Positions 2,802 through 20,596 of a stretch of 22,208 nucleotides of DNA are shown piece by piece. Within the stretch, counting starts at the first letter, position 1; the number at the start of each line of letters is the position of its first letter. The notes under the pieces are model-generated. The model worked only from the letters and a program-made list of their open reading frames with translations, was not told the origin of the DNA and ran no database searches. The position numbers and the translations under genes were made by a program. This DNA comes from a virus: the IMG/VR virus record IMGVR_UViG_3300050821_002901, positions 1 through 22,208 of that record; one strand, written 5' to 3'.

Positions 2802-5800
2802 ATGTGGCAACAGCCAGACTGGAGAAATCGAAACAAGGTATACACCGATCTGGGGTTGCTCGGTCGGGTGGGCTTGCTTTGGGTTGATGAGAAGAGAGAT
2901 TTTGGTTGGGCTCGCGATTGGTATCTGTACCATATCCTTGATGATGGTCAAGTTGAAACGCAAATCTACCTCAAGCAAAATTTCCTTGAGGCAACGACAG
3001 GTTCTAACCAGACCTACACGTCGGATTCAACGTGGAACAATTCGAGTAACACGGTTGAAACAGTAGGAGCGGGTGCGGCGGGGGCGCACGGCGCCTCAAC
3101 AACGACTGGCGGTGGCGGTGGTGGCGGTGGTGCTTATAACAAGATAACGAACTTCAGCTTTGCCACACCTGGTACAACGACCGCGACATATCAGGTCGGA
3201 ACGGCTGGCGTCCATGGTGGCACCTTTCCGCAAAACGGCGGGGACACATGGTTTAATGGTACCACGCTTGCGGGTTCGTCGGTCGGATCAAAAGGTGGCG
3301 CATCGCCTGCGACGAATACGACGGCGACGGGAGGCACAGCGGGGCTTGCATCAGCAGGTATTCCCACCACATCTCCACCAGCGCGTGATGGTGGCGCGGG
3401 TGCGGCAGGCGCCAGTGCTACGGCGGGTGGTGGTGGAGGCGGTGCCGGAGGACCAACTGGTGTTGGAGGCGCGGCATCGGGTACAACAGGCGGCACAGGT
3501 GACGGTGGTACAGTAACGGCTGGCGCCGCAGGTAATCCGGGTACCTCATTCAAGGGATCACAATTTACCGGTTCTGTTGCAGGCGGTATTGGTGGTGGAG
3601 CAGGAGGGTCAAACGCATCTGGTGGTACGGGCGGTACTGCGATCGGCTATGGCGGCGGTGGCGGCGGTGGATCGCGAAGCACTGGAACGGGCGGTGACGG
3701 CTTTAAGGGCATAGTGGTCCTGACATGGGTCGCGACCAACCTTAAGGCAATAACCACTATTAGCTCTGCAAGTAGCGTCAAAGCGACAAAGCAGATAACA
3801 GCGGCGCGTGCTATTAGTCCAATATCGTCCGCTAGCGCCGTTACCTCTGCAAAGAAAATCAGCGCCGCGCGTGCAGTTGGTTTATTTTCGTCAGCGCAAT
3901 CTGTATCGTTGCTTAAGACCGTAACGAAGTTTTTATCAGTCGCGTTTGGTGAGGGTGTATCATTAGCAAGGTCAGTAAGCCATTTAAAGAGCATAGCCCT
4001 GTCCATGCCTTCTGTAAATACCGGCGTGATGACGCTGACCAGGTCCGTTTCAGGTACAGGCAATGCGCAAAGCGTATCCCTACTGAAACAGGTTGGTCAT
4101 ATCATCGCTGTCGCTTGGACAGAATTGGTTACGCTCGCGCACACGTTCATAAGCGGAGGAGGAGCGCACTCACAGGCGATTAACATATCTAGTCCATCTG
4201 TCGTGTCGTTGATGCGTAGCATCGCACACATCATTTCCGTTTCTAGTGCTGAGGTTATAACGCTAGCACGCTCTATCGCGCACGCAATCTCGCTGATTAT
4301 GGCTGAGGCCGTGACGAAGATCGTGAGCGTATTTAAGACCCTAAGTCTATCAAATGCACAGACGGTGACGCTAGCACTAATAATGGCTTACGCTCGTACC
4401 ATCACAATAACGATGTCTGAGTCTGTGACGCTAACGCGGCTCATGGCCTATCTGCGAACTATTACAGTCAGCATTGGTGAAACGGTTACGCTAGCCAAGC
4501 TAACGGCCCATCTACGAACGATCGCAGTCAACATCGGCGAAACGATAACGCTGACGCGTCTAAGTTCGTTCCTTCGCACTATCACGATTGCGATGGCCGA
4601 GTCCGTGACGTTAAGCAAGGTCCTTACCTTTCTCCGCACGATCCAGGTCAATATCGGGCAGAGCATAACGTTAGCTAGCCTCGCGACGCATCTTCGAACG
4701 TTGACTGTGAGTATTGGAGAAACAGTCACGCTGGCGAAGGTTGCGGCGCATCTGAAAACCTTGACGGTCAATATCGGTGAGACTGTAACGCTCACCCGTA
4801 TCATGGCCTATCTGCGAACTTTAAATGTTTCGATTGGTGAAACTGTCACGCTGTCCCGCGTCAGTGCCTACCTTAGAACCATTATCGTCAGCATTGGCGA
4901 AACGGTAACACTATCGGCAACGAGAGCATTCCTGCGAACTATCTCGGTTACGCAATCGCAGCTTGTGTCGCTGATCCGATCGACTGCCCATGCAATATCT
5001 GTTGCGTTGAGTGAAGCGGTAACACTCTCTCGCGCTACCGCGTATCTGCGAACATTGACTGTGTCTATCGGCGAGGTGGTGACACTAACGCGCGTCATGT
5101 CTTACCTTCGGACGATCACAGTCAACATAGGAGAAACTGTAACGCTGACGCGTGTCGTGGCTTACCTTCGTACCTTGAGTGTGTCGATTGGTGAGGTTGT
5201 CACGTTAGCGCGTGCCGCGACAAAGCTAAAAACGTTGACCGTGTCAATCGGCGAAACTGTAACGCTAACCCGCATCATGTCGTACTTGCGGACGCTGCTT
5301 GTGTCGATTGGTGAAACTGTCACACTGACACGCATTAACGCCTATCTGCGAACGTTGACCGTAAACTTCGGTGAAACGGTCACACTGATTAAATCAATTG
5401 GCCATGCCATTGCAGTTAGTAGCGCGGAGTCCGTGACGCTATCCGCATTGAAGGCCTTCTTGCGAACAATAACCCTGAGTATCGGCGAAACGGTCACGTT
5501 AACCCGCATCATGGCATATCTTCGCACCATCACAATAACGATGGCTGAAGTTGTAACGTTGGCGCGTATCATGGCCTACCTGCGGACGTTGACCGTAAGC
5601 ATCGGTCAGACTGTGACGTTAATGCGATCGATCGCGCACGCCATATCTATCGCGCAATCGCAACTAGTTTCTTTGACCAAATCAGTCGCGCACGCTATCT
5701 CGATAATCAGTGCATCTTTGGTGACGCTCATCCATACGCCTGTGAAGGCATTCACTGTATTGTGGAGTGAAGTCGTAACACTTAGGAATTCGATTGCGCA

Positions 5801-7061
5801 TATCGTGAACGTAGCACAAGCGCAGGCGTTGTCGCTTATTCGATCGATTGCGCACACCATCACGCTGACGATAAATGAAGCTGTTCTAGCGTTAACAAAG
5901 GCACCAAACCCTAAAACAATTTTGATCTCGTCAGCCGAGTTGGTCACGCTTGCACATCTCAAGATAAAATTGCAGGCGATCACGATAACGCTTGGATCAT
6001 TGGTAACACTGATCCGCTCTGTTGCGCATAACATCGCATTGAGCACTGCCCCACTTGTGACGCTAACCCGGTCTGTGGGCCATGCAATTTCCGTTGCCTG
6101 GTCTCAATTGGTCACATTGAGCCGCATTGCCGCCCACCTTCGTACCATCACAGTAACGATGGGCGAAACGGTTACGTTAACGAAGCTCAAGGCGAAACTA
6201 CAATCGATCAATATCACGCAAGCGTCGATTGTAACCCTTATTCGTTCCATTGCGCACGCTATCACTGTTCAATCATCGTCGATCGTGACCCTGATGCGAT
6301 CGGTTGGTCATAACATCAGCATGACCTCGGCTGAAATCGTCACCCTGACGCGGCAACGCCTTGCTACGATACTGATCAGCTCTGCACAACTCGTGACGTT
6401 GCTCCGATCGACCAGACATCTTGTAAACCTGACAACATCTAGTCTCGTATCGCTCAGGCGTTCAGTTGCGCACATCATAACCACGCTGATCTCGCAACTA
6501 GTTTCATTGTCAACGGGATCGCAGAATAGGCAACAACAAATCAATGTGGCGATTGGCGAGTTGGTATCACTTACAAAGCGCATTCCGCAAGATATCGCGG
6601 TTGCTCTGAACCAATTGGTGACGTTGACCAAGATCGTTGGCTCACATCTTTCGACGTTCATTGGTCAGACTGTCACGCTTAGTTTTACAAAGGCAGCACG
6701 GAAGACACTGAACATTCTATCTGGTCAATTGATCACGCTAAGGCGTACTTCTGCACACCTGATCTCGTTTGTGTCCCCCCTTGTTCAGTCATTCACAGCA
6801 GGTTCTGCACAAACGTTTGAGTTTATTATCGGCTCTGGGCAGTCCGTTCGTATCGCCTTTACCAAGTTCCCGCCGATCGTATTGCGCGCGATCGTGCAAT
6901 CGCTGTTCACGTTGTCTAGCTACATCCAGTCCAATTTCACACTGCAGGCATCAGTGCCTGACGAGAACGTGGAATTGAAAGGCAGTGTTGCTGATACACC
7001 GCAACTTCGTGCCGAAGTTCCTGATCCGAATTTTCCACTTAGGGGCGAGGAGGCTCCATAA
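2802..7061 (+). CDS. Giant repeat fibre protein with glycine-rich N-terminal domain
   Basis: The protein is 1419 residues long. Residues 1-85 are a Trp/Tyr-containing head of unknown role. Residues about 85-308 form a glycine-rich domain, with YTSDSTWNNSSNTVETVGAG at its start, runs of six to eight glycines, and IVVLTW at its end. This resembles glycine-rich domains of phage tail proteins. From residue 314 to about 1355, roughly 50 short repeats follow the pattern AYLRTLTVSIGETVTLTRIM (20 residues) or GHAISVAWSQLVTLSRIA (18 residues). Each repeat reads as two short beta strands, suggesting a beta-solenoid or stacked-hairpin shaft. A distinct tail (about 1356-1419) is richer in Pro, Glu and Asp. 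There is no signal peptide. The start lacks a clear Shine-Dalgarno and depends on closeness to the previous gene, so the first 80 residues are less certain than the rest. It is probably a long virion fibre or adhesin shaft. Confidence 0.7.
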   Translation: MWQQPDWRNRNKVYTDLGLLGRVGLLWVDEKRDFGWARDWYLYHILDDGQVETQIYLKQNFLEATTGSNQTYTSDSTWNNSSNTVETVGAGAAGAHGASTTTGGGGGGGGAYNKITNFSFATPGTTTATYQVGTAGVHGGTFPQNGGDTWFNGTTLAGSSVGSKGGASPATNTTATGGTAGLASAGIPTTSPPARDGGAGAAGASATAGGGGGGAGGPTGVGGAASGTTGGTGDGGTVTAGAAGNPGTSFKGSQFTGSVAGGIGGGAGGSNASGGTGGTAIGYGGGGGGGSRSTGTGGDGFKGIVVLTWVATNLKAITTISSASSVKATKQITAARAISPISSASAVTSAKKISAARAVGLFSSAQSVSLLKTVTKFLSVAFGEGVSLARSVSHLKSIALSMPSVNTGVMTLTRSVSGTGNAQSVSLLKQVGHIIAVAWTELVTLAHTFISGGGAHSQAINISSPSVVSLMRSIAHIISVSSAEVITLARSIAHAISLIMAEAVTKIVSVFKTLSLSNAQTVTLALIMAYARTITITMSESVTLTRLMAYLRTITVSIGETVTLAKLTAHLRTIAVNIGETITLTRLSSFLRTITIAMAESVTLSKVLTFLRTIQVNIGQSITLASLATHLRTLTVSIGETVTLAKVAAHLKTLTVNIGETVTLTRIMAYLRTLNVSIGETVTLSRVSAYLRTIIVSIGETVTLSATRAFLRTISVTQSQLVSLIRSTAHAISVALSEAVTLSRATAYLRTLTVSIGEVVTLTRVMSYLRTITVNIGETVTLTRVVAYLRTLSVSIGEVVTLARAATKLKTLTVSIGETVTLTRIMSYLRTLLVSIGETVTLTRINAYLRTLTVNFGETVTLIKSIGHAIAVSSAESVTLSALKAFLRTITLSIGETVTLTRIMAYLRTITITMAEVVTLARIMAYLRTLTVSIGQTVTLMRSIAHAISIAQSQLVSLTKSVAHAISIISASLVTLIHTPVKAFTVLWSEVVTLRNSIAHIVNVAQAQALSLIRSIAHTITLTINEAVLALTKAPNPKTILISSAELVTLAHLKIKLQAITITLGSLVTLIRSVAHNIALSTAPLVTLTRSVGHAISVAWSQLVTLSRIAAHLRTITVTMGETVTLTKLKAKLQSINITQASIVTLIRSIAHAITVQSSSIVTLMRSVGHNISMTSAEIVTLTRQRLATILISSAQLVTLLRSTRHLVNLTTSSLVSLRRSVAHIITTLISQLVSLSTGSQNRQQQINVAIGELVSLTKRIPQDIAVALNQLVTLTKIVGSHLSTFIGQTVTLSFTKAARKTLNILSGQLITLRRTSAHLISFVSPLVQSFTAGSAQTFEFIIGSGQSVRIAFTKFPPIVLRAIVQSLFTLSSYIQSNFTLQASVPDENVELKGSVADTPQLRAEVPDPNFPLRGEEAP
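3741..6866 (+). repeat. About 50 tandem coding repeats, 54 or 60 bp each
   Basis: The repeats encode the shaft of the giant fibre. I divided the protein by eye into about 54 units: the first eleven and the last seven or so are divergent, and the middle (about 4380-6360) is regular. The consensus 20-residue unit is AYLRTLTVSIGETVTLTRIM. The 18-residue unit lacks two residues after the AH/AY pair and reads AHAISV..S..VTL.RSI. The protein motif is conserved but codon choice differs from copy to copy, so the DNA is not an exact repeat. Confidence 0.85.
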
Positions 7062-10352: not shown

Positions 10353-13300
10353 ATGGTCGATCTCGCAACAGTTGGCGTAGCATACGATTCCGGGCCGCTT
10401 AAGCAGCTTGGTGCTGACCTTGATGCTGTTGACGCAAAGAACAAACAGGTTTCGGCATCGGCAAAGGATATGGCGGCGTCAAATGATGCCGTCACTGCGA
10501 GTCTTGGTCGTGCAACAACGGCGATGGCTGCGCGCACCAATCAAGATCCAGACGCATTGTTGGGTAATCTTAAGCCCGCATCTGAGGCTTTAAAGAACCT
10601 GACGGTCCAGAATGGGCAAATCGTACCCGCACTTAAGGCTACGACAGATGCTCACGCCAAACTAGGTGAAGAAGCGCAAAAGACGGGTGGAGCCCTGTCA
10701 TTTCTCAAGAACCTGTTGCCTGGATATGGTTCCGATCATTCTGAGGCAGCGGGCCATGTAACGGAACACGCAGCAGCGCACGGTGCGCTGTCCCACGCGT
10801 CAACAGAATTCAGGCACGCAATTCATGCATTGCATCCTGTGCTCGCGACCGCAGGTGTGGGCATGGGCGAACTTGGCGCCTTCGCAACCGTCGCGCGTGG
10901 TGGTATCGGTGCTCTTGCTGCTGCGATTGGTGGCACGTTTGTCGCTGAACTGCTCAAGACTGGTGAAGAGCTTCGCAAGCTCAAGGAAGAGTTTCAAGCG
11001 ACGTTCGGTGAACAAGCCGGGGCCTCCATGTTTAAGGAGGCCGAAGAAGACGCAAAGAAATTAGGAACAACGGTTCAAAACGTATTTCCTGCGATGGAGG
11101 CTGGCTATCGTTCCCTGCAGAAGGGTCGCTTTGAAGCCCAGCAGGATATGCGCAAGTCGCTGCAAGAATCCGGCACCTTGACGTTTGCTCCCGGCCAGGC
11201 TGGTCAGGATGCGATGTGGAATATGGCCCAAAGGCAGGGCTATCAATTTGATGCTAGTTCCAAGACCGGCAAAGATATTCAAGCGCTGATCGATCTGTTC
11301 AAAGCACTTGGCATGAATGAGGATGAAGCAGGTCGTAAGGCGGCTGACTTCTTCCTGGCTCTACCAAAGTCTGCAGAACAGTCCCGCGCCGCAACGAAAG
11401 AGGCAACAAACGATCTAATCAAGCTATATGAAATTGGTGGCAAGGGTGGCGACGATGCTGCGAAAGCAACGCAGCAGATGTTCACAGAATTGAAGAAGGG
11501 TGGACTTTCGTCTGAAGCCTTTGACAAGATTGCCGAAGAGTCCAAAACGGTCGGACAAAACATTGCTGAAGCGTTTGGATTCAAAGGTCCGGAAGCGATC
11601 GATAAGTTCTCTGTTGCGCTCGAGGGTGGCGCCGTTTCATTGAAAGATGTCATCGTTGCACTAAATGCAGTGCATATGAAGACCGATGAGATGGAGGTGC
11701 CTCCTGGCGTCGCAAAGAGTTGGTCGGATCTTAAGACTGAGTTCAAACACGCCTTTGACGTTATGGCAGAGGCGATGGACGAGAACTCTGCCAAGGGTTC
11801 AGGCTTTGCGGGCGTCCTTGATCAAATCACAGGCGCAATTAAAAAATTGGAGCCGGTGCTTGCGTCTGCAGTTGCAGGTGGGATAAAGCAGTTTAATGAT
11901 GAGATAAAGGACCTTAAACAATGGGGCGAAGATCTTTCCAAGTTCTTCGACACTCTTCAAGCGAAGATTGACGCCTTCAGCGCCTCTTTACCGAGTTGGA
12001 TGAAGCCGGGTGAAAACGGCGTGGGTGCATCGCTGCCGTCGATACCAGCACCGTGGTGGCTAGATTCCCTCAAGAACGTTTTCACAGGCATGGCCAATGG
12101 TCCCGGTGGCACGCCAACGGAAGGCGAGCATGGAGGGCATGGTGGCGAACACGCATCTGAACAGGTTAGCCATTTTGAAAGCAGCGTAAAGGATACAGGA
12201 GAAGCGGCAGATCATTCCAAGGAACCTGTTTACCAATTCCAGACTGGCGTCGCAACGATTGGCGCGAAGAGCGTTGATGCGACGGCGCAGCTAAACAATT
12301 TCGCTGCCTCAATCCAAAATGTTCAGAGCGCCGCGGGATCAGGTGGTGGTTCGGGTACTGGTGCGTCAGGTAGCAGCCCTGCTGCAGGTGCTACATCATC
12401 TGCTGCACCTCAACCCAGCCTGCCCAGCCCAGACATAACAACGCCAGCTCCAAGTGATACGGCTGATACCAGCGCCACAGCAGACGTAGGCGCAAACGCT
12501 GGTGGTGGTGTATATATGATTGGCGCCTCGGGTGGGGCCAACGTTGTAAACAACAACACGAGCGGAACCGATAGCATCGCATTGAGAGGGACTGTCTCTC
12601 CTGGCGAAGTTGTTGCCGTCATTCCATCGGCTCAAGCCAATTCATCTACGATGAGTGCTCTCCAGAACATTATCGGAGGCACTCCTGTAAGTATCGGCGG
12701 AGGTTCTGTATCGGGTGGCGTTGCTCCTGCGGCTGCGGCGCCAGTTGTTGCTCCCACAACGGCGCTTGATCAAACGGCGGCAGGGCTTATCTCCTCGCTA
12801 CCAGTAAGTCCTTTCGTCACAGCCTTGTCTGGTTACATGCAGGCGATTTCGCCAAGCATCATCGGCATGGCCACGAACATTATGAACCAACTGCATAACC
12901 TCACGATCCCATTTACGTCACTGGGCGGGGGTGTGTTTGCAAATCTCAGCGGCCTTGGTGGCTTGGGTAGTTTCGGGGGCGGTAGTGGTGGTAAGCTAGG
13001 GGCTCAATCAGGTGGTGTGTCATTTCCGAAAGACAGCCAGTTTGATCCAAACTACCAACCCAAGTCCGATCAAGGCGGTGGTGGCAGCAGTAAAAACAAC
13101 GGTCCGCATCTTGATGCGGAAACGATGGGCGCCGCGCAGGAGTCCCGCGCTGCCGCAAAGGGTACAGATCAGCCCTCGGTCTTTAGAATTAATGCAAAGG
13201 GAACGTTAGACCCGTTCAAGCAAGATCAAACGAACACCCCGACGACTCCACAGCCCGACGTTTCGGCTACGGCGGCCGCGAACGTGCAATCTATTCTAGA

Positions 13301-16265
13301 CAGCCAAACACCAACAGCTCCAGATAATTCGTTTAGTCCATTCACAGCCAACGCAAGCGATTATTATTTCAATCAAGACACATACGCATCCTCTCAGCCA
13401 ACTCAATCATCTGATCAAGCGACTTACAGTCCATTCCAGGATAACAGTTATGTAGACACGGCATTTAATTCTGACACCTATGCACCATCGCAGGATGTTG
13501 CGCCTGCACAGGATGTGGTCGATATTGGTGCAAACGCAACGGGCGGTGTCTATACGATCGGTGGTTCGGGTACTACAACCAAATCCTCAGGTGCAACTGG
13601 TACTGATAGCCTATCGTTGTCGGGAACCGTGTCACCTGGTGAAATCGTTGCAGTCATTCCTCCCGATAAAGCCAATCAAGCAACGATGGATCAGCTTCAG
13701 ACGCTGATCAACACGTCACCCGTTAGTATCGGCGGTGGCAACGTCACAGGCGTTGGCTTAAACGAAAGCGAGCTTGCAGCAGCTGTTGCAGGGCCTGCTG
13801 GTCCTACGCCGGCGGGTCTTGATCCGACCATTCGCGCAATGATGGCGCAACTTGCGGTAATTGCATCGCCGGCATTTCAGGCTGCCGCAGGTCTGCTTGG
13901 CCAGCACCCGACACAACAAGCAACGGGTGGTGGCGGTGGTGGATCTGGCGGTGGCGGCAAAGGAGATCAACAGCCCAAGCCGCAACAGCAGGAAGACAAT
14001 ACGCCCGCTCAGGGCGCGGCACAGACATCGCGCGGTGCGGCGTCGTCTGGAAAATCGTCTGGCGCAAACGTCATCAAATTAACTGGTACGCCGCCAGCAG
14101 AGACGCCTACCACTGGTGGGTTCAACCCAAACAGTTACAATTTCTTGGACAATGCGCTTGCAGCTAACACTGATTATTCGCAATTTGCGCCAATGCCAGA
14201 GAGTCCGTTCACGAGCGGAGAATCTGATTATGCTTTCGACCCTAACAGCTACGCACCATCACAGGACACTGCCTACAGCGGATTTAGTCAATCCGATTAT
14301 GTAAGTCAGGCCTTTGATCCTGCTTCATACGCCCCATCGCAGGATTATGCAACGGCAGACTCCATGGCAGGCGCTGCAGACGCAGCTGCGCAAATGGATA
14401 ACTCTACAGTTGACATTGGCGACAACGCAACAGGCGGTGTATATACGGTTGGGGGTCCCGGCCCCGGGAATTCGGGAGATACAATCAAGCTTGTGGGCAA
14501 CGTATCGCCTGGTGAGGTTGTCGCAGTTATTCCAGGCAACAATGCGACATCACAGACCAAGCAAAAATTGTCGGCGCTCGTTTCAGGTGGCGGAGGAGGT
14601 CCGCAAGGACTTGGCGTCACCAACGACCAACTTCAGTCCCTTCTATCGCGTATTATGTCGCTATACGCGGTTTCTAAAATTCAAGCTCCTTCGCAACAGC
14701 CGCAGGCAACGGGTGGTGGAGGTGGTGGCGGCTCGAAAGGTGGTGGCGATCAGAAGCCACAGCAACAACAACAGCAGCCAGAACCCCAGAAAGGAGCTAG
14801 TCAGGCGTCAAGAGGGTCTAGATCAACCTCAAGGAACCTAACGCCAAATCCTTCGCCGCCAAATCCATTTCAAAATCTTAACAGCGCTTACAGTGGCATC
14901 AACAACTCTGATTTCAATTACCTAGACGCTGCCAACGCCAATGGCGGTCAGTTCGGGCCGTTTGGGCCAACTGATTCCAATCTGTTCGATCCGTTCGGTG
15001 GAACCTACGGCGACTATGGTAATGGAACGTCGAATTTCTATGACCCTTACAGCGCGATCAATCCAACCACGTCGCAAGAACTTGGATTGGACAATCCATA
15101 TTTTAACCCCTACGGCGTTGGACCCTATGCTGGAGATCCTGCTGGCTACACAGGAGCCGCTTTCGACACGAGTAATCTAAATTACGACACCAACTCGTTG
15201 TTCTCACAGTTGACCTATGGTCCACAAAGCCCATATGACACGAGCAACATTTACAACGATGTTAACTCTTCTTTCGGTGACATAAATCCCGTAGACACGT
15301 CAGCGCCAATCGATTACTCGGCACCTTACAACACCACGGGTGATTTCAACAGTGGTGGTGATTTCAGCGGCGGTGATGTATCGGCTGCAACGGGAGGTAC
15401 CTTCGAAGTTCAGAACACGGACGGAGGTGGCACAGACTCGGTTGGCGTCAATATGCATGTCAACGCAGGCGAGCTCATCAGCGTTTATTCACAAGATCAG
15501 TTGCGGGCAATGTCTGGCGGTGGCGATCCACTAGGCACGATGACCTTCCCGACGAAGGGAAACAAGTTCGCAACGGGAGGTTCTGGCTATGTCATCAATG
15601 GCCAATTTATCTCCTCGCCGCAGGTCATTCCTGCAGCAGGTTATCAAACACAAGCGGAGAAGGCTGGAAGTCCATACACAGCGGCAATACAAACTGGCAA
15701 CTATCAGATTATCAATGGCAACATCATACCGAATAGCCAAGCTGAACTTGCGTCACTGCAAGCACCGACAAGTCCATACTTCATCGGCCCTGCTTCTGCG
15801 AAGGGTCCAGCCGGCTTCACCCCATCGTATGAGTTCGCAACACCGCCACCTGCATTACCGGGGTTGGTGTTGCCTGGTACGGGAACACCTGCGTCATTAG
15901 GTGTGGACACATTCGCGACGGATCAAGGCGGTCATGGTGTTAAGACTCCGTTGACGCCAACTCCTGTGACAGAGCATGATCCTGGTCCTGCTGCAACGAA
16001 CAGCCTTGGGCCCATGATTATGAGTGATCCTGGGCCCTCTACAAACATCAGTAGTGGCCCAACGGCTAGTGCGGGTGCAGGCTCCACAAGGCCCTTCGCA
16101 GCGCCGACAACACCACCAGTTCCCCTTGGTGCGCCGGCTGACGGTAACGTGAGTAGCACAACCAGTGGCACCAAATCAGTTAACGTCAACGTGTTTGGTG
16201 TAAGTAATCCAGCACAGTTTGTGCAATCTAGAATGGCAATCAACCGCGCAATGAGATATGCATAA
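10353..16265 (+). CDS. Tail tape measure protein, very long, with repeated C-terminal modules
   Basis: At 1970 residues this is the longest gene of the window and sits directly after the chaperones. Residues 1-500 are helical and start with SGPLKQLGADLDAVDAKNKQ. A hydrophobic Gly/Ala-rich segment lies at about 165-205 (VARGGIGALAAAIGGTFVAE) and may insert in the membrane during DNA entry. Helical stretches run to about 540, then His/Gly-rich linkers. From 713 on, four copies of a GG-V-GG...DS...PGE.V.V module occur at about 713-790, 1059-1135, 1356-1425 and 1675-1725, separated by Gly runs and Tyr/Gln/Ser/Pro-rich stretches with repeated YAPSQD. The last 30 residues (VNVNVFGVSNPAQFVQSRM then AINRAM) match tape measure C-termini. 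The protein sets tail length. The unusual feature is that more than half of it is low-complexity, not helical. Confidence 0.8.
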   Translation: MVDLATVGVAYDSGPLKQLGADLDAVDAKNKQVSASAKDMAASNDAVTASLGRATTAMAARTNQDPDALLGNLKPASEALKNLTVQNGQIVPALKATTDAHAKLGEEAQKTGGALSFLKNLLPGYGSDHSEAAGHVTEHAAAHGALSHASTEFRHAIHALHPVLATAGVGMGELGAFATVARGGIGALAAAIGGTFVAELLKTGEELRKLKEEFQATFGEQAGASMFKEAEEDAKKLGTTVQNVFPAMEAGYRSLQKGRFEAQQDMRKSLQESGTLTFAPGQAGQDAMWNMAQRQGYQFDASSKTGKDIQALIDLFKALGMNEDEAGRKAADFFLALPKSAEQSRAATKEATNDLIKLYEIGGKGGDDAAKATQQMFTELKKGGLSSEAFDKIAEESKTVGQNIAEAFGFKGPEAIDKFSVALEGGAVSLKDVIVALNAVHMKTDEMEVPPGVAKSWSDLKTEFKHAFDVMAEAMDENSAKGSGFAGVLDQITGAIKKLEPVLASAVAGGIKQFNDEIKDLKQWGEDLSKFFDTLQAKIDAFSASLPSWMKPGENGVGASLPSIPAPWWLDSLKNVFTGMANGPGGTPTEGEHGGHGGEHASEQVSHFESSVKDTGEAADHSKEPVYQFQTGVATIGAKSVDATAQLNNFAASIQNVQSAAGSGGGSGTGASGSSPAAGATSSAAPQPSLPSPDITTPAPSDTADTSATADVGANAGGGVYMIGASGGANVVNNNTSGTDSIALRGTVSPGEVVAVIPSAQANSSTMSALQNIIGGTPVSIGGGSVSGGVAPAAAAPVVAPTTALDQTAAGLISSLPVSPFVTALSGYMQAISPSIIGMATNIMNQLHNLTIPFTSLGGGVFANLSGLGGLGSFGGGSGGKLGAQSGGVSFPKDSQFDPNYQPKSDQGGGGSSKNNGPHLDAETMGAAQESRAAAKGTDQPSVFRINAKGTLDPFKQDQTNTPTTPQPDVSATAAANVQSILDSQTPTAPDNSFSPFTANASDYYFNQDTYASSQPTQSSDQATYSPFQDNSYVDTAFNSDTYAPSQDVAPAQDVVDIGANATGGVYTIGGSGTTTKSSGATGTDSLSLSGTVSPGEIVAVIPPDKANQATMDQLQTLINTSPVSIGGGNVTGVGLNESELAAAVAGPAGPTPAGLDPTIRAMMAQLAVIASPAFQAAAGLLGQHPTQQATGGGGGGSGGGGKGDQQPKPQQQEDNTPAQGAAQTSRGAASSGKSSGANVIKLTGTPPAETPTTGGFNPNSYNFLDNALAANTDYSQFAPMPESPFTSGESDYAFDPNSYAPSQDTAYSGFSQSDYVSQAFDPASYAPSQDYATADSMAGAADAAAQMDNSTVDIGDNATGGVYTVGGPGPGNSGDTIKLVGNVSPGEVVAVIPGNNATSQTKQKLSALVSGGGGGPQGLGVTNDQLQSLLSRIMSLYAVSKIQAPSQQPQATGGGGGGGSKGGGDQKPQQQQQQPEPQKGASQASRGSRSTSRNLTPNPSPPNPFQNLNSAYSGINNSDFNYLDAANANGGQFGPFGPTDSNLFDPFGGTYGDYGNGTSNFYDPYSAINPTTSQELGLDNPYFNPYGVGPYAGDPAGYTGAAFDTSNLNYDTNSLFSQLTYGPQSPYDTSNIYNDVNSSFGDINPVDTSAPIDYSAPYNTTGDFNSGGDFSGGDVSAATGGTFEVQNTDGGGTDSVGVNMHVNAGELISVYSQDQLRAMSGGGDPLGTMTFPTKGNKFATGGSGYVINGQFISSPQVIPAAGYQTQAEKAGSPYTAAIQTGNYQIINGNIIPNSQAELASLQAPTSPYFIGPASAKGPAGFTPSYEFATPPPALPGLVLPGTGTPASLGVDTFATDQGGHGVKTPLTPTPVTEHDPGPAATNSLGPMIMSDPGPSTNISSGPTASAGAGSTRPFAAPTTPPVPLGAPADGNVSSTTSGTKSVNVNVFGVSNPAQFVQSRMAINRAMRYA
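12489..15530 (+). repeat. Four diverged coding modules within the tape measure
   Basis: The modules begin near 12489, 13527, 14418 and 15375, about 300-345 codons apart. Modules 1 to 3 share G.NA.GGVY.IG, then a linker, TDSI.L.GTVSPGEVVAVIP, and a short segment ending SIGGG or SGGGG. Module 4 is more diverged (ATGGTFEV...GTDSVGV...NAGELISVY). Modules 2 and 3 are the closest pair. Between them are glycine runs (for example 13926-13965 and 14713-14748) and the YAPSQD peptides (around 13482, 14251 and 14329). Confidence 0.75.
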
Positions 16266-16927
16266 TGGTATCAATTCCTGTAATACCAAACTCCGTGGCG
16301 GTTGGAGCCGAGGTCGATATTATATCGGTAACGGCTGTCAATCCAAACGTCGGCGGTATATCGGGCCGACTTGCGGTTCGTGTGCCCAAGCGTCAATTCA
16401 ATTGTACGGTAGGACCAAATGATACGCCTTCAGTTCGGGCAATCCATTACACTCATCGAAGGCGTTGGCCTGTTGCTATTCGTGACTGGGGTGATTTTGT
16501 ATTCGAAGATGAGGACCTAGTTTACTCGGCTGGCGGTTCCGGATTCCTCGCGCCCCTACGTCGCTTAATTCAGCCAGGCGTAGGCACGCGTTATTTGCAC
16601 CAACGTGTGTTGCTCCCTGACGAAGAGGATGTGCCCGTCGTTATCAAGGTCAATGGTACGCCGCTTTTACGCAGCGATTGGACATTCGACAATTTCGGCA
16701 TCGCTGATATTCCATCGGCACATTTATCGTCTGGTTCGACGGTAACATGGTCCGGACGTGCGTTTGTCCCAGTATGTTTTATGGATGACACGTTAAGTGT
16801 CACCATAAACGTGCAGCAACAGGACACAACCAACTATGGAGTACAATCGATCCAGCAAGTCCGTTTCGAAGAAATATTCGAAGAAGAGCTCAACGCACTC
16901 ATGGCAGAGACGGACGACAGCATCTAA
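16265..16927 (+). CDS. Distal tail protein, DUF2460-like
   Basis: This 220-residue protein fits the DUF2460 pattern: VHYTHRRRWPVAIRDW-like block (visible as YTHRRRWPVAIRDWGDFVF), then a beta-rich region with RYLHQRVLLPDEEDVPVVIKVNGTPL, WTFDNFGIADIPSAHLSSGSTVTWSG, and FVPVCFMDDTLSVTIN. In the Rhodobacter gene transfer agent and related siphophages this family is the distal tail protein that connects the tube to the baseplate hub. The start overlaps the tape measure stop (TAATG), and its own stop overlaps the next start in the same way. The position immediately after the tape measure agrees with the assignment. Confidence 0.7.
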   Translation: MVSIPVIPNSVAVGAEVDIISVTAVNPNVGGISGRLAVRVPKRQFNCTVGPNDTPSVRAIHYTHRRRWPVAIRDWGDFVFEDEDLVYSAGGSGFLAPLRRLIQPGVGTRYLHQRVLLPDEEDVPVVIKVNGTPLLRSDWTFDNFGIADIPSAHLSSGSTVTWSGRAFVPVCFMDDTLSVTINVQQQDTTNYGVQSIQQVRFEEIFEEELNALMAETDDSI

Positions 16928-18048
16928 TGGTTAGGCAGTTCCCATTTGATCCAACGGTCGCAGTTGCGTTACCTGCGTTGGTAACGATATTGCAGGGCGA
17001 CATTACTATTCGCTTCACGACATGGGGTCACACCGTGATCGTTGAAGATGGATCTACGGGTGTACTGTACGAACCATGGCCGGGCTCTGACATTACGGGC
17101 ATACAGGTTCCATCTGACGGCACGCCGCTCAATGCTGACGTGGTATTGATGGCTCAACTCGGTTCACCTATCCAACCAGGTGATGCGACAAGGGGCATGC
17201 TCGACAATTGGCCCATATCGATTGAGCTGTTTGATCCAGGCAATCTTGCCGCTGGTACTTTCCTTATCATGACGGGCACGATCGGATCAGTTGAGGAGGA
17301 CTCCCTCAATAAAGTGACGATCGCGGCTAACGGACAACTCCGTTTGGCTGCTGAACGTGCAATGAATGAGAAGTACTCATTGACGGGTCGCGAATCCCTT
17401 GGCGATGATCGTTGTAAGATTCCGATTTGCCTTGGTCAACAGATTGACTTCTACGACATTGCACGAAGTTCAGACTATGTTCCCAAAACCTTCAATGATG
17501 GGACAACAGGCCTAATCAAGGTGACGGACTGCTACGGTCGCGTCAGGACTGGAGTGTCGGGTAACGTTGAGGATTATGCCAACGTCTATTATGAGTGCAC
17601 GACCCAAGGCACGACCGCATCAGTTGCCCCGACATACAATCCAGCGCTTGGTGCAACGACAACAGATGGCAGTGCCGTTTTCACAGCGAAAAATTCATGG
17701 GGTAGATACGCTCGAGGTTTTGCGGCCGATCCGTTCAATATTGTCTTTACCTCGCTGCCCGACACCCGCGCAAGCGATGACACATGGTATAAATTGGGTG
17801 GACTATTCATTCGTAGTGGCGCCTACAATGCGTTTCCCGTGATGGTAATCAACACATGGGATCATGCGACGTTAACGGTGACACTGTTCCTTCCGATACA
17901 GCCCGACCTTGTTCCTGCAAATACACAATTCGAAATTTATCCGGGCTGCGATTTGACGTACCAGATGTGTCAATCGCGCTTTGCGAATATTGCGAATATA
18001 CGCGCTGAATACCTCGTCCCACCACCCGAGGCGATCACAGGCCTATGA
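16927..18048 (+). CDS. Baseplate hub/tail-tip protein, DUF2163-like with BR0599-type C-terminus
   Basis: This 373-residue protein shows the DUF2163 order: an N-terminal beta-domain with IRFTTWGHTVIVEDG and LYEPWPGSDITGIQVPSD, then DNWPISIELFD, GTFLIMTGTIGSVEEDSLNKV and a conserved Cys in LGDDRCKIP. The C-terminus has YPGCDLTYQMCQSRFANIANIRAEYL, resembling the Phage_BR0599 domain with its conserved cysteine-containing tail. In gene transfer agents this gene is part of the tail-tip hub, between the distal tail protein and a cell-wall peptidase. No peptidase gene follows here. Its start and stop overlap the neighbouring genes (TAATG and ATGA), so expression is coupled. Confidence 0.7.
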   Translation: MVRQFPFDPTVAVALPALVTILQGDITIRFTTWGHTVIVEDGSTGVLYEPWPGSDITGIQVPSDGTPLNADVVLMAQLGSPIQPGDATRGMLDNWPISIELFDPGNLAAGTFLIMTGTIGSVEEDSLNKVTIAANGQLRLAAERAMNEKYSLTGRESLGDDRCKIPICLGQQIDFYDIARSSDYVPKTFNDGTTGLIKVTDCYGRVRTGVSGNVEDYANVYYECTTQGTTASVAPTYNPALGATTTDGSAVFTAKNSWGRYARGFAADPFNIVFTSLPDTRASDDTWYKLGGLFIRSGAYNAFPVMVINTWDHATLTVTLFLPIQPDLVPANTQFEIYPGCDLTYQMCQSRFANIANIRAEYLVPPPEAITGL

Positions 18049-18824
18049 CCGACACGTACAACTATTATACCCAAATTGCATCGGCCGCAGCAGCGGGAGG
18101 CATCCAAGCGCCTTTTGCTGCACCGAATGGTTATCATTGGGAAAGCGGTGGCGTAGGACCGAATGGTCTGCCGATCCCTGTGCTCGTCGGCAACACGCAA
18201 CAAATATCGGGCTCAGTACTGCCTGGCATTCCACCATCGATTGGTTCGAATGTCCCCAACCTGCAAACGATGATTGCACCTCACCAGGTGATCACGTTTG
18301 ATACGATCGGTCAAACGATCTATTCCACATTGGGTCATTGTCGTTTGCCCTTCCGTTACATTTGGGTTCAGGGCCTTGATGCATTCGGTGACGTGCTCAC
18401 AAGTGACAGCTTGACGTTTGCTGCAGCATTATGCGAGCCGATTGATCCTCTCGAGGATGGAGAGTCCTTTTCAATATTCGAGGGTGCGCAGCAAGTCTTC
18501 AACCTTGTGGATGGCATCACGCCTCCCGTCAATTGGGACCCACTCAGGCAGGCGCTTTTGTTGGCCGCTCTTGCAACGGCCGTCATCTATCCCGGAACAG
18601 AGGGGCAGGACCCTGATCCGACGATTACGGCAGACAAGGGCGCAGACGTCGTGTCTGCCAATCGCGGTCTGCGCTATATCGTCATTCAGGATTATCCTAG
18701 CATCGGTCTTCCTGCCTTGTCGCTCGTGTGGCAGCGCACGAATGACAATAGTGGCGGAGGAAGTGGTAAGAAGCCTAAACCATCATCGGGTGGTGCCGTA
18801 GAATTCCTTCCGGGTTCAAGCTGA
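18045..18824 (+). CDS. Tail hub, N-terminal half as separate gene
   Basis: This 259-residue protein has NGLPIPVLVGNTQQISGSVL near residue 40 and SLTFAAALCEPIDPLEDGE near residue 120. Further on come YPGTEGQDPDPTITADKGA and NRGLRYIVIQDYPSIGLPALSLVW. The order matches the N-terminal region of the large hub (host-specificity) protein of alphaproteobacterial siphophages and gene transfer agents, where IPV.YG..R..G and ALCEGPI are hallmarks. In those proteins it continues into a large hub of over 1000 residues. Here it stops at TGA 18822-18824 after a Gly/Ser/Lys/Pro-rich tail, and the next gene carries the following domain. The split seems natural, because starts overlap stops and no relic frame is visible. 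Confidence 0.65.
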   Translation: MTDTYNYYTQIASAAAAGGIQAPFAAPNGYHWESGGVGPNGLPIPVLVGNTQQISGSVLPGIPPSIGSNVPNLQTMIAPHQVITFDTIGQTIYSTLGHCRLPFRYIWVQGLDAFGDVLTSDSLTFAAALCEPIDPLEDGESFSIFEGAQQVFNLVDGITPPVNWDPLRQALLLAALATAVIYPGTEGQDPDPTITADKGADVVSANRGLRYIVIQDYPSIGLPALSLVWQRTNDNSGGGSGKKPKPSSGGAVEFLPGSS

Positions 18825-20596
18825 TGTCCATTCAGTTTTTCGTTGCAGGAATTTTTGAACAGCTGGGGCAGCGCTTCAGTATCAACGTTGGTACGGACGG
18901 CTTAGAAAGCGATCTGTGCTGGGGAGTAGTCCTAAACAGTCAGGCTGTCTATTCGCAGTTCCTGACCAAGCATGCTGGCCCCTATAACTATCTGATCATG
19001 GACGACATTGTAAACGGTGCGCCTATGATCAGGCTTATCCGTCGCGCCGTCAATGCAGGTATTGAAATAGACGCGGCCGTCAATCAAAAGGATTGCATAT
19101 TTAGATCACCTGATCAACCTGTCATCAAGTACAATCGCGTCGATCCATCCTCGCTGCCTCGTACCGTTGAGTTGCAGTACATTTCGTTTGATCGCGACTT
19201 TGCCGTCAACACGCAATATGCAAGGAACGAAGGCGCACGCGTCCAACAGAACATTTTATCATCTGCGATCGATTTCATTTTGTCAGACGATCAAGCCAGA
19301 GACATGGCTTATGATTTGCTCTGGCGCATTTGGATGCAGCAGCTTTCGGTCACGTTCGAACATCCGGACCTGACGCTTGAGCCTGGCGACATTGTCCAAA
19401 TGCAGACGGACAATGGCGTTTATGTCGTCCAGATCACAACGAGTCTGATAACAAAAGAGCCAATGAATTCGAGCGATTTCGGTCGCACAAATCAACTCAA
19501 TGCTAATCTGTTGTTGACGCGACGTGGCGCGACGGTTCCTCCTGGTCAGGTCAATCAAAGTTCTGCATCATCTGGCACGTTCGTTATCACTGCTGGCGCC
19601 ACTGTTTTGGGTGTTGGTGATCCGCCTGTCGTTGATGGTGAGTTTACGATTACGGCTGGAGCTACAGTTGCCGGTGTTGGTGATTTAGGGCACGTGCATA
19701 GCCATACGATCACGATAAGCGAAGGGCAGAGTGTCAGCCTCATTGAAACAAAAGGCACTAATCATAGCAAGGCAATCAATATTTCGCAATCTGAGGCAGT
19801 CACACGAACTGGTGTGGTTGGTAAGCGTAAGACCATCAACATCTCGTCGCCTGAAACTGTTACGCGAACGGGGATAAAGTTAAAAGGCAAGGCTATCAAC
19901 ATTTCACAATCTGAAACCGTTACCAGAACTGGCGTACCAAACAAGGTCTTCGGTATCTCGCAGGCCGAAACTCTCACACTTGTACCTGCTAGACCACCGA
20001 CCACGCTCAACACCAGCGACAAATCGTCTAACATCACGTTGTCTAACGGCAACCTGACCGCGACCTTCGGTAGCGCTAGTGACGGCGGTGTACGTTCGGT
20101 TTCATCGAAGACCAGTGGAAAGTATTATGTCGAATTTACTCCGGGTGCCACTTGGTCCGGTGGCGACTGTTGTTTAGGAATTGCGCTAGGTAGTGCTACG
20201 ATCAGTCCACCCGGCACTACTACGTTCCCCTTCACAGCGGCAGGAATAGCGGCTGTCTTTGCTGGGTCCAATCCGGCTATTTGGTTCAACGGCGCATTTA
20301 CAGGCGACAATCTGCAAGCCACAGGCATTGGCTCACTTCTCCGCATGGCTGTTGACTTGGACAATAAGAAGATTTGGTTTAACAACCCGGACAACGGTAC
20401 GCGATGGAATGAAAACGCCACCTTCAATCCAGCTACTAATACAGGCGGTCTCGACATATCTGCGCTATTCCCCGGCGCTGGTGCGTTTGTGGCAGTCGGT
20501 GCAAACCAGAACGGCGCTTCAGCTACAGTCAATTTTGGTGGCTCAGCCTTTATCGGAGCCGTACCGTCGGGCTTCACAGCAGGATGGCCTGCCTAA
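18824..20596 (+). CDS. Tail hub, Phage-tail_3 part fused to beta repeats and a SPRY-like tip
   Basis: This 590-residue protein begins with a Phage-tail_3-like domain (about 40-235): NYLIMDDIVNGAPMIRLIRR, SSLPRTVELQYISFDRDFAV, LSDDQARDMAYDLLWRIWM and LEPGDIVQMQTDNG. Residues 250-290 hold two copies of G.F.ITAGATV.GVGD. Residues 294-390 hold five short repeats (INISQSETVTRTG type) resembling the giant fibre repeat. The end, about 400-590, has RSVSSKTSGKYYVEF, LGIALGSA, WFNGAF, and ends ASATVNFGGSAF, a SPRY/concanavalin-like pattern found on phage adhesins. It is probably the tip protein that contacts the cell surface. The start overlaps the previous stop (TGATG). Confidence 0.7.
   Translation: MSIQFFVAGIFEQLGQRFSINVGTDGLESDLCWGVVLNSQAVYSQFLTKHAGPYNYLIMDDIVNGAPMIRLIRRAVNAGIEIDAAVNQKDCIFRSPDQPVIKYNRVDPSSLPRTVELQYISFDRDFAVNTQYARNEGARVQQNILSSAIDFILSDDQARDMAYDLLWRIWMQQLSVTFEHPDLTLEPGDIVQMQTDNGVYVVQITTSLITKEPMNSSDFGRTNQLNANLLLTRRGATVPPGQVNQSSASSGTFVITAGATVLGVGDPPVVDGEFTITAGATVAGVGDLGHVHSHTITISEGQSVSLIETKGTNHSKAINISQSEAVTRTGVVGKRKTINISSPETVTRTGIKLKGKAINISQSETVTRTGVPNKVFGISQAETLTLVPARPPTTLNTSDKSSNITLSNGNLTATFGSASDGGVRSVSSKTSGKYYVEFTPGATWSGGDCCLGIALGSATISPPGTTTFPFTAAGIAAVFAGSNPAIWFNGAFTGDNLQATGIGSLLRMAVDLDNKKIWFNNPDNGTRWNENATFNPATNTGGLDISALFPGAGAFVAVGANQNGASATVNFGGSAFIGAVPSGFTAGWPA
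19703..19990 (+). repeat. Five beta-strand repeats in the tail hub
   Basis: The units read HTITISEGQSVSLIETKG, SKAINISQSEAVTRTGV, KTINISSPETVTRTGI, KAINISQSETVTRTGV and KVFGISQAETLTLV. The spacing is about 18-22 residues. They resemble the 18-residue units of the giant fibre, such as QAINISSPSVVSLMRSI (near 4177). Confidence 0.75.

Follow-up and report, generated by a model that had tools for sequence, protein, structure and literature searches.

The tail tape measure protein encoded in the window, by which we mean the whole stretch of DNA analysed here (a complete IMG/VR record of 22,208 bases that may be a fragment of a genome), carries four copies of a module that is usually present once. 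This module of about 37 residues (consensus GG.F.VGG.GG.DS..V.F.ATPGE.V.V) is an ordinary and widespread C-terminal signature of tape measure proteins. In the usual arrangement a single copy lies 32–95 residues from the C-terminus. This arrangement is broken here by four copies, the last of which ends 259 residues before the end, and the protein is thus an outlier among tape measures through an unusual enlargement of a known part. The features and the evidence for each are listed in Table 1.

Table 1. Features of the tape measure gene and of the neighbouring hub gene in the window.
Feature	Residues	Position	Strand	Evidence
Tail tape measure protein gene, 1970 aa		10353..16265	+	PF20155 TMP_3 and gene neighbourhood
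Helical ruler part (predicted)	~14-580	10392..12092	+	AlphaFold2 secondary structure (low pLDDT); high helix propensity and charge
Coil before module 1 (predicted)	581-714	12093..12494	+	model without secondary structure
Module copy 1	715-759	12495..12629	+	42.8 bits; model beta hairpin 719-724/741-746, low pLDDT
Linker 1	760-1060	12630..13532	+	homologous to linker 2, z 8.7 against block shuffles
Module copy 2	1061-1105	13533..13667	+	47.3 bits; model beta hairpin and helix, pLDDT ~57-81
Linker 2	1106-1357	13668..14423	+	homologous to linkers 1 and 3; model pLDDT mostly <50
Module copy 3	1358-1395	14424..14537	+	43.3 bits; model helix after it, pLDDT 64-78; hairpin unassigned by DSSP
Linker 3, highest Tyr/Asn/Gln	1396-1678	14538..15386	+	homologous to linker 2, z 5.5; composition
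Module copy 4, diverged	1679-1711	15387..15485	+	15.1 bits; 25-31% identical to copies 1-3
Pro/Gly/Ser/Thr-rich extension between copy 4 and conserved C-terminus	1712-1940	15486..16172	+	missing in L002, L005, L008
Conserved C-terminal strand and helix, end VNVNVFGVSNPAQFVQSRMAINRAMRYA	1941-1970	16173..16262	+	alignment with L002, L005, L008
Baseplate hub protein, neighbour used for finding relatives		16927..18048	+	PF09931 E=2.5e-11, PF09356 E=3e-11

The open reading frame matches the family TMP_3 (PF20155) at residues 308–469 (E=5e-8, 33 bits, below the curated cut-off of 41) and aligns to the tape measure of a related contig, L002, at 6e-26 without composition correction. On its 5′ side lie the gene of the major tail protein (phrog_158) and then two genes for tail assembly chaperones (phrog_313, PF23812); on its 3′ side follow a weakly DUF2460-like gene, the baseplate hub gene, one further gene and a Phage-tail_3 gene. 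This order is that of siphophages resembling gene transfer agents (GTA), such as R4C, RDJL and the Rhodobacter phages. The TMP_3 match and the shared gene order, with the position after the tail assembly chaperones and before the baseplate genes, identify the frame on sequence grounds as the tape measure of a GTA-like siphophage tail cluster, in agreement with the original prediction.

Some other genes of the window deserve mention in their own right. Upstream of the tail cluster, a gene for a SAM-dependent methyltransferase (397–1020; PF13489, E=7e-11) adjoins one for a lectin-like protein (1021–1863; PF13385, E=2e-4). In a 1419-residue protein, also encoded upstream of the tail genes (2802–7061), the N-terminus is Gly_rich_2-like (PF21722, E=2e-4) and about 45 tandem repeats come after it, mostly of 18 or 20 residues (LRTITVSIGETVTLTRIMAY). 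A similar motif (INISQSEAVTRTG) recurs a few times at residues ~295–400 of the Phage-tail_3 protein (18824–20596), as if a repeat were common to both proteins. The gene at 18045–18824 occupies the slot of the cell wall peptidase in GTA-like phages and is without a Pfam match.

Modules were detected with a profile HMM built from 22 copies; copies 1–3 were among them, which makes their scores partly circular, and copy 4 was not. The best score in 500 block shuffles of the same C-terminal region was 8.7 bits, so that copy 4, the weakest at 15.1 bits, lies above chance. Four copies had been proposed at this place at spacings of about 300–345 residues, and the measured spacings are 346, 297 and 321 residues.

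An independent set of viral contigs was searched with a DNA pattern for the motif, which favours canonical copies and would leave further copies of less than 15 bits undetected. Among the 63 complete reading frames at the 80 loci found, 62 hold a single copy, which always lies 32–95 residues from the C-terminus, independent of protein length (271–1358 aa), and one holds two. A single copy near the C-terminus is thus the norm, as had been assumed. The same holds for 15 of the 16 named phages in which the module was detected (R4C included), the exception being RDJL3 with two, and the three matches among 398 Pseudomonadota genomes have one copy each. Several PHROG tape measure families include the module, and none was detected by the HMM in the tape measure of phiCbK, a protein of nearly equal length (1964 aa). 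Two copies were found in L002, L005, L008, RDJL3 and L052; no other protein with three or four was found in the viral contigs, named phages and Pseudomonadota genomes sampled. The original prediction had set against its own reading the case that homologues carry the modules as a normal feature: the module is indeed normal and the three nearest relatives carry two each, but the copy number is odd here.

Searches with the whole protein in viral contigs, named phages and genomes returned no relatives, module 1 alone gave no match among named phages, and the window's own module variant as query found no other tape measure. The nearest relatives were instead reached through neighbouring genes, L002 and L005 through the hub protein (51% and 49% identity) and L008 through the gene after the hub. 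All three share the tail genes and encode tape measures of 931–1150 residues with two modules, the last ending 39–63 residues from the C-terminus; the linker of L005 is likewise rich in Gly, Ser and Tyr. Since module 1 starts at residue 610–717 in all four genomes while total length ranges from 931 to 1970 residues, the ruler appears roughly constant and the C-terminal part variable. The record of a fourth relative, L004, contains no module and may not reach the tape measure; there, a frame of 443 residues (511–1839) precedes the hub gene, starts with Ser/Thr/Ala-rich repeats (STEALDTAAFSAAEIYSGDLASTEAADIAAF) and has no evident tape measure end. An open-ended frame at the start of L002 (1–909) contains what appears by eye to be an intein-like segment (CFPADTLVQFGD ... 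GVFVSNCRCW).

The repeats themselves give indications of their history. Copies 1–3 share 54–59% identity with each other and 25–31% with copy 4. In comparison with composition-preserving block shuffles, the alignment of linker 1 to linker 2 reaches z=8.7 and that of linker 2 to linker 3 reaches z=5.5; no linker aligns with the sequence that follows copy 4. Copies 1–3 with their linkers are best described as one unit of about 300 residues that was triplicated in this lineage, and copy 4 may be the old terminal copy, now diverged. The simplest history would start from an ancestor with two copies, as in L002, L005 and L008, and involve a tripling of its first copy together with the linker. In DNA, copies 1–3 are 56–69% identical over the best-conserved 78 bases and their third codon positions are largely randomised (7–13 of 26 identical), so the triplication appears to be old and the module protein to have been kept. 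The strong DNA divergence between copies led us to reject an assembly or strain-mixture artefact as well as a recent origin by slippage. A search for tandem repeats, with a longest period of 500 bases, detected none spanning the units.

An AlphaFold2 model of the N-terminal part, built from four aligned sequences and of low confidence, is helical at residues 14–580, coiled up to 718 and forms a hairpin at 719–746. Where modelled, the other two thirds of the protein are not helical. The model agrees, at low pLDDT, with the proposal that the first part is a helical ruler, which would comprise about 570 residues and hence 85 nm at 0.15 nm per residue. In a model of modules 2–3, module 2 forms a beta hairpin followed by a helix with pLDDT up to ~80, and a helix of similar confidence follows module 3. 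Solved structures, searched by profile with the whole protein and with the module as queries, yielded chance-level matches only, and Foldseek returned no fold match.

Residues 715–1970, about 64% of the chain, are rich in Gly, Pro, Ser and Asn, low in charge and, where modelled, predicted to be unstructured outside the modules. The disorder expected for the linkers is matched by the models, which show coil with pLDDT mostly <50 in linker 2. Of the sequence features described before, glycine runs are present between the modules, as are three YAPSQD peptides (1043, 1300, 1326) plus one YASSQ (1011). Stretches of the QQQQ type do occur, but are fewer than implied (one QQQQQQ at 1470, one QQQ at 1211), and the statement that more than half of the protein is of low complexity does not hold, as only 19% of 25-residue windows have an entropy <3 bits.

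Comparison with characterised tails gives a possible context for the module. In JBD30, the last 33 residues of the tape measure lie in the baseplate core as a coiled coil; the prediction is an unstructured stretch for residues 930–1021 and, for residues 1022–1066, a hook composed of two helices and one short hairpin (PMC11445458). According to the same proposal, this hook holds the tape measure to the baseplate once the C-terminal part has been expelled (PMC11445458), as described for T5 (PMC10038345). The module described here resembles the hook of JBD30 gp46 in being a predicted hairpin after an unstructured stretch and before a hub-bound C-terminus. It differs in that the hook is present in a single copy. 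Of the two helices and short beta hairpin of the JBD30/T5-type hook, the models of the module show a hairpin and one following helix. The pattern GPGTGTSDSIP within residues 1022–1066 of JBD30 resembles the module, yet scores 6.7 bits with the module HMM, which is not significant, and we regard homology as a lead only. In R4C, studied by cryo-EM, the module (520–554 of 598) directly follows a predicted helix of 517 residues (PMC10276861), and the RcGTA tape measure consists of a helical part of 113 residues, a part of 83 residues made up of strands and loops, and a C-terminal helix of 20 residues (PMC7296036). From its place in these three comparisons, the module probably lies at the junction of ruler and hub.

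Closest in organisation are the tape measures of Dinoroseobacter phage R4C and of the Rhodobacter phages RcRudolph and RcSimone-Hastad, which share the ruler, a C-terminal module and a similar C-terminal segment; downstream of their genes come those of the minor tail protein, hub, peptidase and megatron, of GTA-like type. They differ in having a single module, 44–45 residues from the C-terminus, and lack long linkers. Ends similar to residues 1941–1970 were found in R4C, RcRudolph and phiCbK. The Roseobacter phage RDJL3 has two modules in one tape measure, but the spacer of ~150 residues between them is helix-like and not a Tyr-rich linker. Growth by duplication is known from tape measure repeats of 11 and 18 residues (PMC3271669, PMC5099701); those are short repeats of the ruler, whereas the unit described here has ~300 residues and is C-terminal.

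The explanation we favour, to which we give about an even chance, is that the C-terminal region is a multiplied anchor-and-spacer between the ruler and a hub-bound C-terminal helix, used at the tail tip or in ejection. Residues up to ~570–714 would form the helical ruler and the last ~30 residues a conserved segment that presumably docks in the hub. By analogy to JBD30, the single hairpin module of most such tape measures would be a hook anchoring the protein in the opened baseplate. Tandem duplication of the module with its flexible linker has produced three similar units before the diverged fourth copy. The expanded region would then lie in the distal tail tube or the baseplate, adding limited length; on ejection it would be released ahead of the rest, as a long and flexible chain offering several anchor points, which could keep the tape measure tied to the tail while the helical part crosses the envelope. 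Such a role is plausible by analogy to JBD30 and T5 and is the most likely reading.

Its main and serious rival, to which we attach distinctly less but still appreciable probability, is neutral expansion, in which tandem duplication and drift lengthened a tolerant, disordered linker and the additional modules have no specific task beyond that of a single one. The linkers do evolve fast, those of the relatives mostly failing to align to the window's above shuffles, copy number differs among relatives and copy 4 has decayed. However, copies 1–3 keep the SPGE.VAVIP core in spite of their diverged third codon positions, which points to selection on the module protein.

A further alternative concerns tail length. 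The original prediction gave 295 nm if all residues counted as helix and about 100 nm if only the helical part did; the lower figure ignores the volume of the C-terminal 1256 residues. Assuming a trimer, 0.1345 nm3 per residue and a lumen of 4 nm, residues 715–1970 occupy ~507 nm3 and fill at least ~40 nm of the tube, unless this region sits in the baseplate or is cleaved off. If it remains in the tube, the tail should measure at least ~125 nm, with the full-helix 295 nm as the other end of the range. A full-length ruler, in which the C-terminal 1256 residues count as well and the tail measures close to 295 nm, seems unlikely to us. It is in keeping with phiCbK, where a tape measure of 1964 residues predicts 295 nm and 300 nm were measured (PMC3556154), although its last ~360 residues are also rich in Gly and Pro, and with JBD30 (1158 aa; tail of 180 nm). 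Against it, the linkers are predicted to be unstructured, so that a fixed rise per residue has no basis, and the C-terminal region is exactly the part that varies while the ruler is similar in relatives. In TP901-1, deletions shorten the tail with the residues removed, and ~127 residues do not count (PMC5099701). R4C, with a tail of 88 nm and a tape measure of 598 residues, agrees with either view: 0.15 × 598 gives 90 nm, which matches the tail as a whole, and 0.15 × 520 gives 78 nm, which matches the 80 nm of tube made up by 20 rings of 4 nm.

Cleavage of tape measure proteins is known, for example from lambda. We consider it improbable that the C-terminal part is likewise cut off in assembly, as in lambda and T5, to act as a separate tip or ejected protein: a cleaved part of the T5 tape measure does remain in the tip (PMC10038345), but the relatives have only 39–63 residues after the last module.

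Returning to the multiplied anchor-and-spacer, a more specific version, which we rate as a long shot, is that the hairpins act in series as stops that catch in the opened hub, with a copy number tuned to the host and not to tail length. If true, the chain would be paid out stepwise through the envelope of a host in which this layer is thick or unusual.

With its expanded C-terminal region, a proposed anchor, this tape measure shows the enlargement of a known part and not a new kind of system. Its module is widespread, yet unnamed and without a solved structure in the literature and libraries searched. From the one- and two-copy relatives to the four-copy protein, copy number forms a series in which the number of anchors changes separately from the length of the ruler. 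Such a series would allow one to ask directly which residues contribute to tail length and what part the module plays in DNA ejection.
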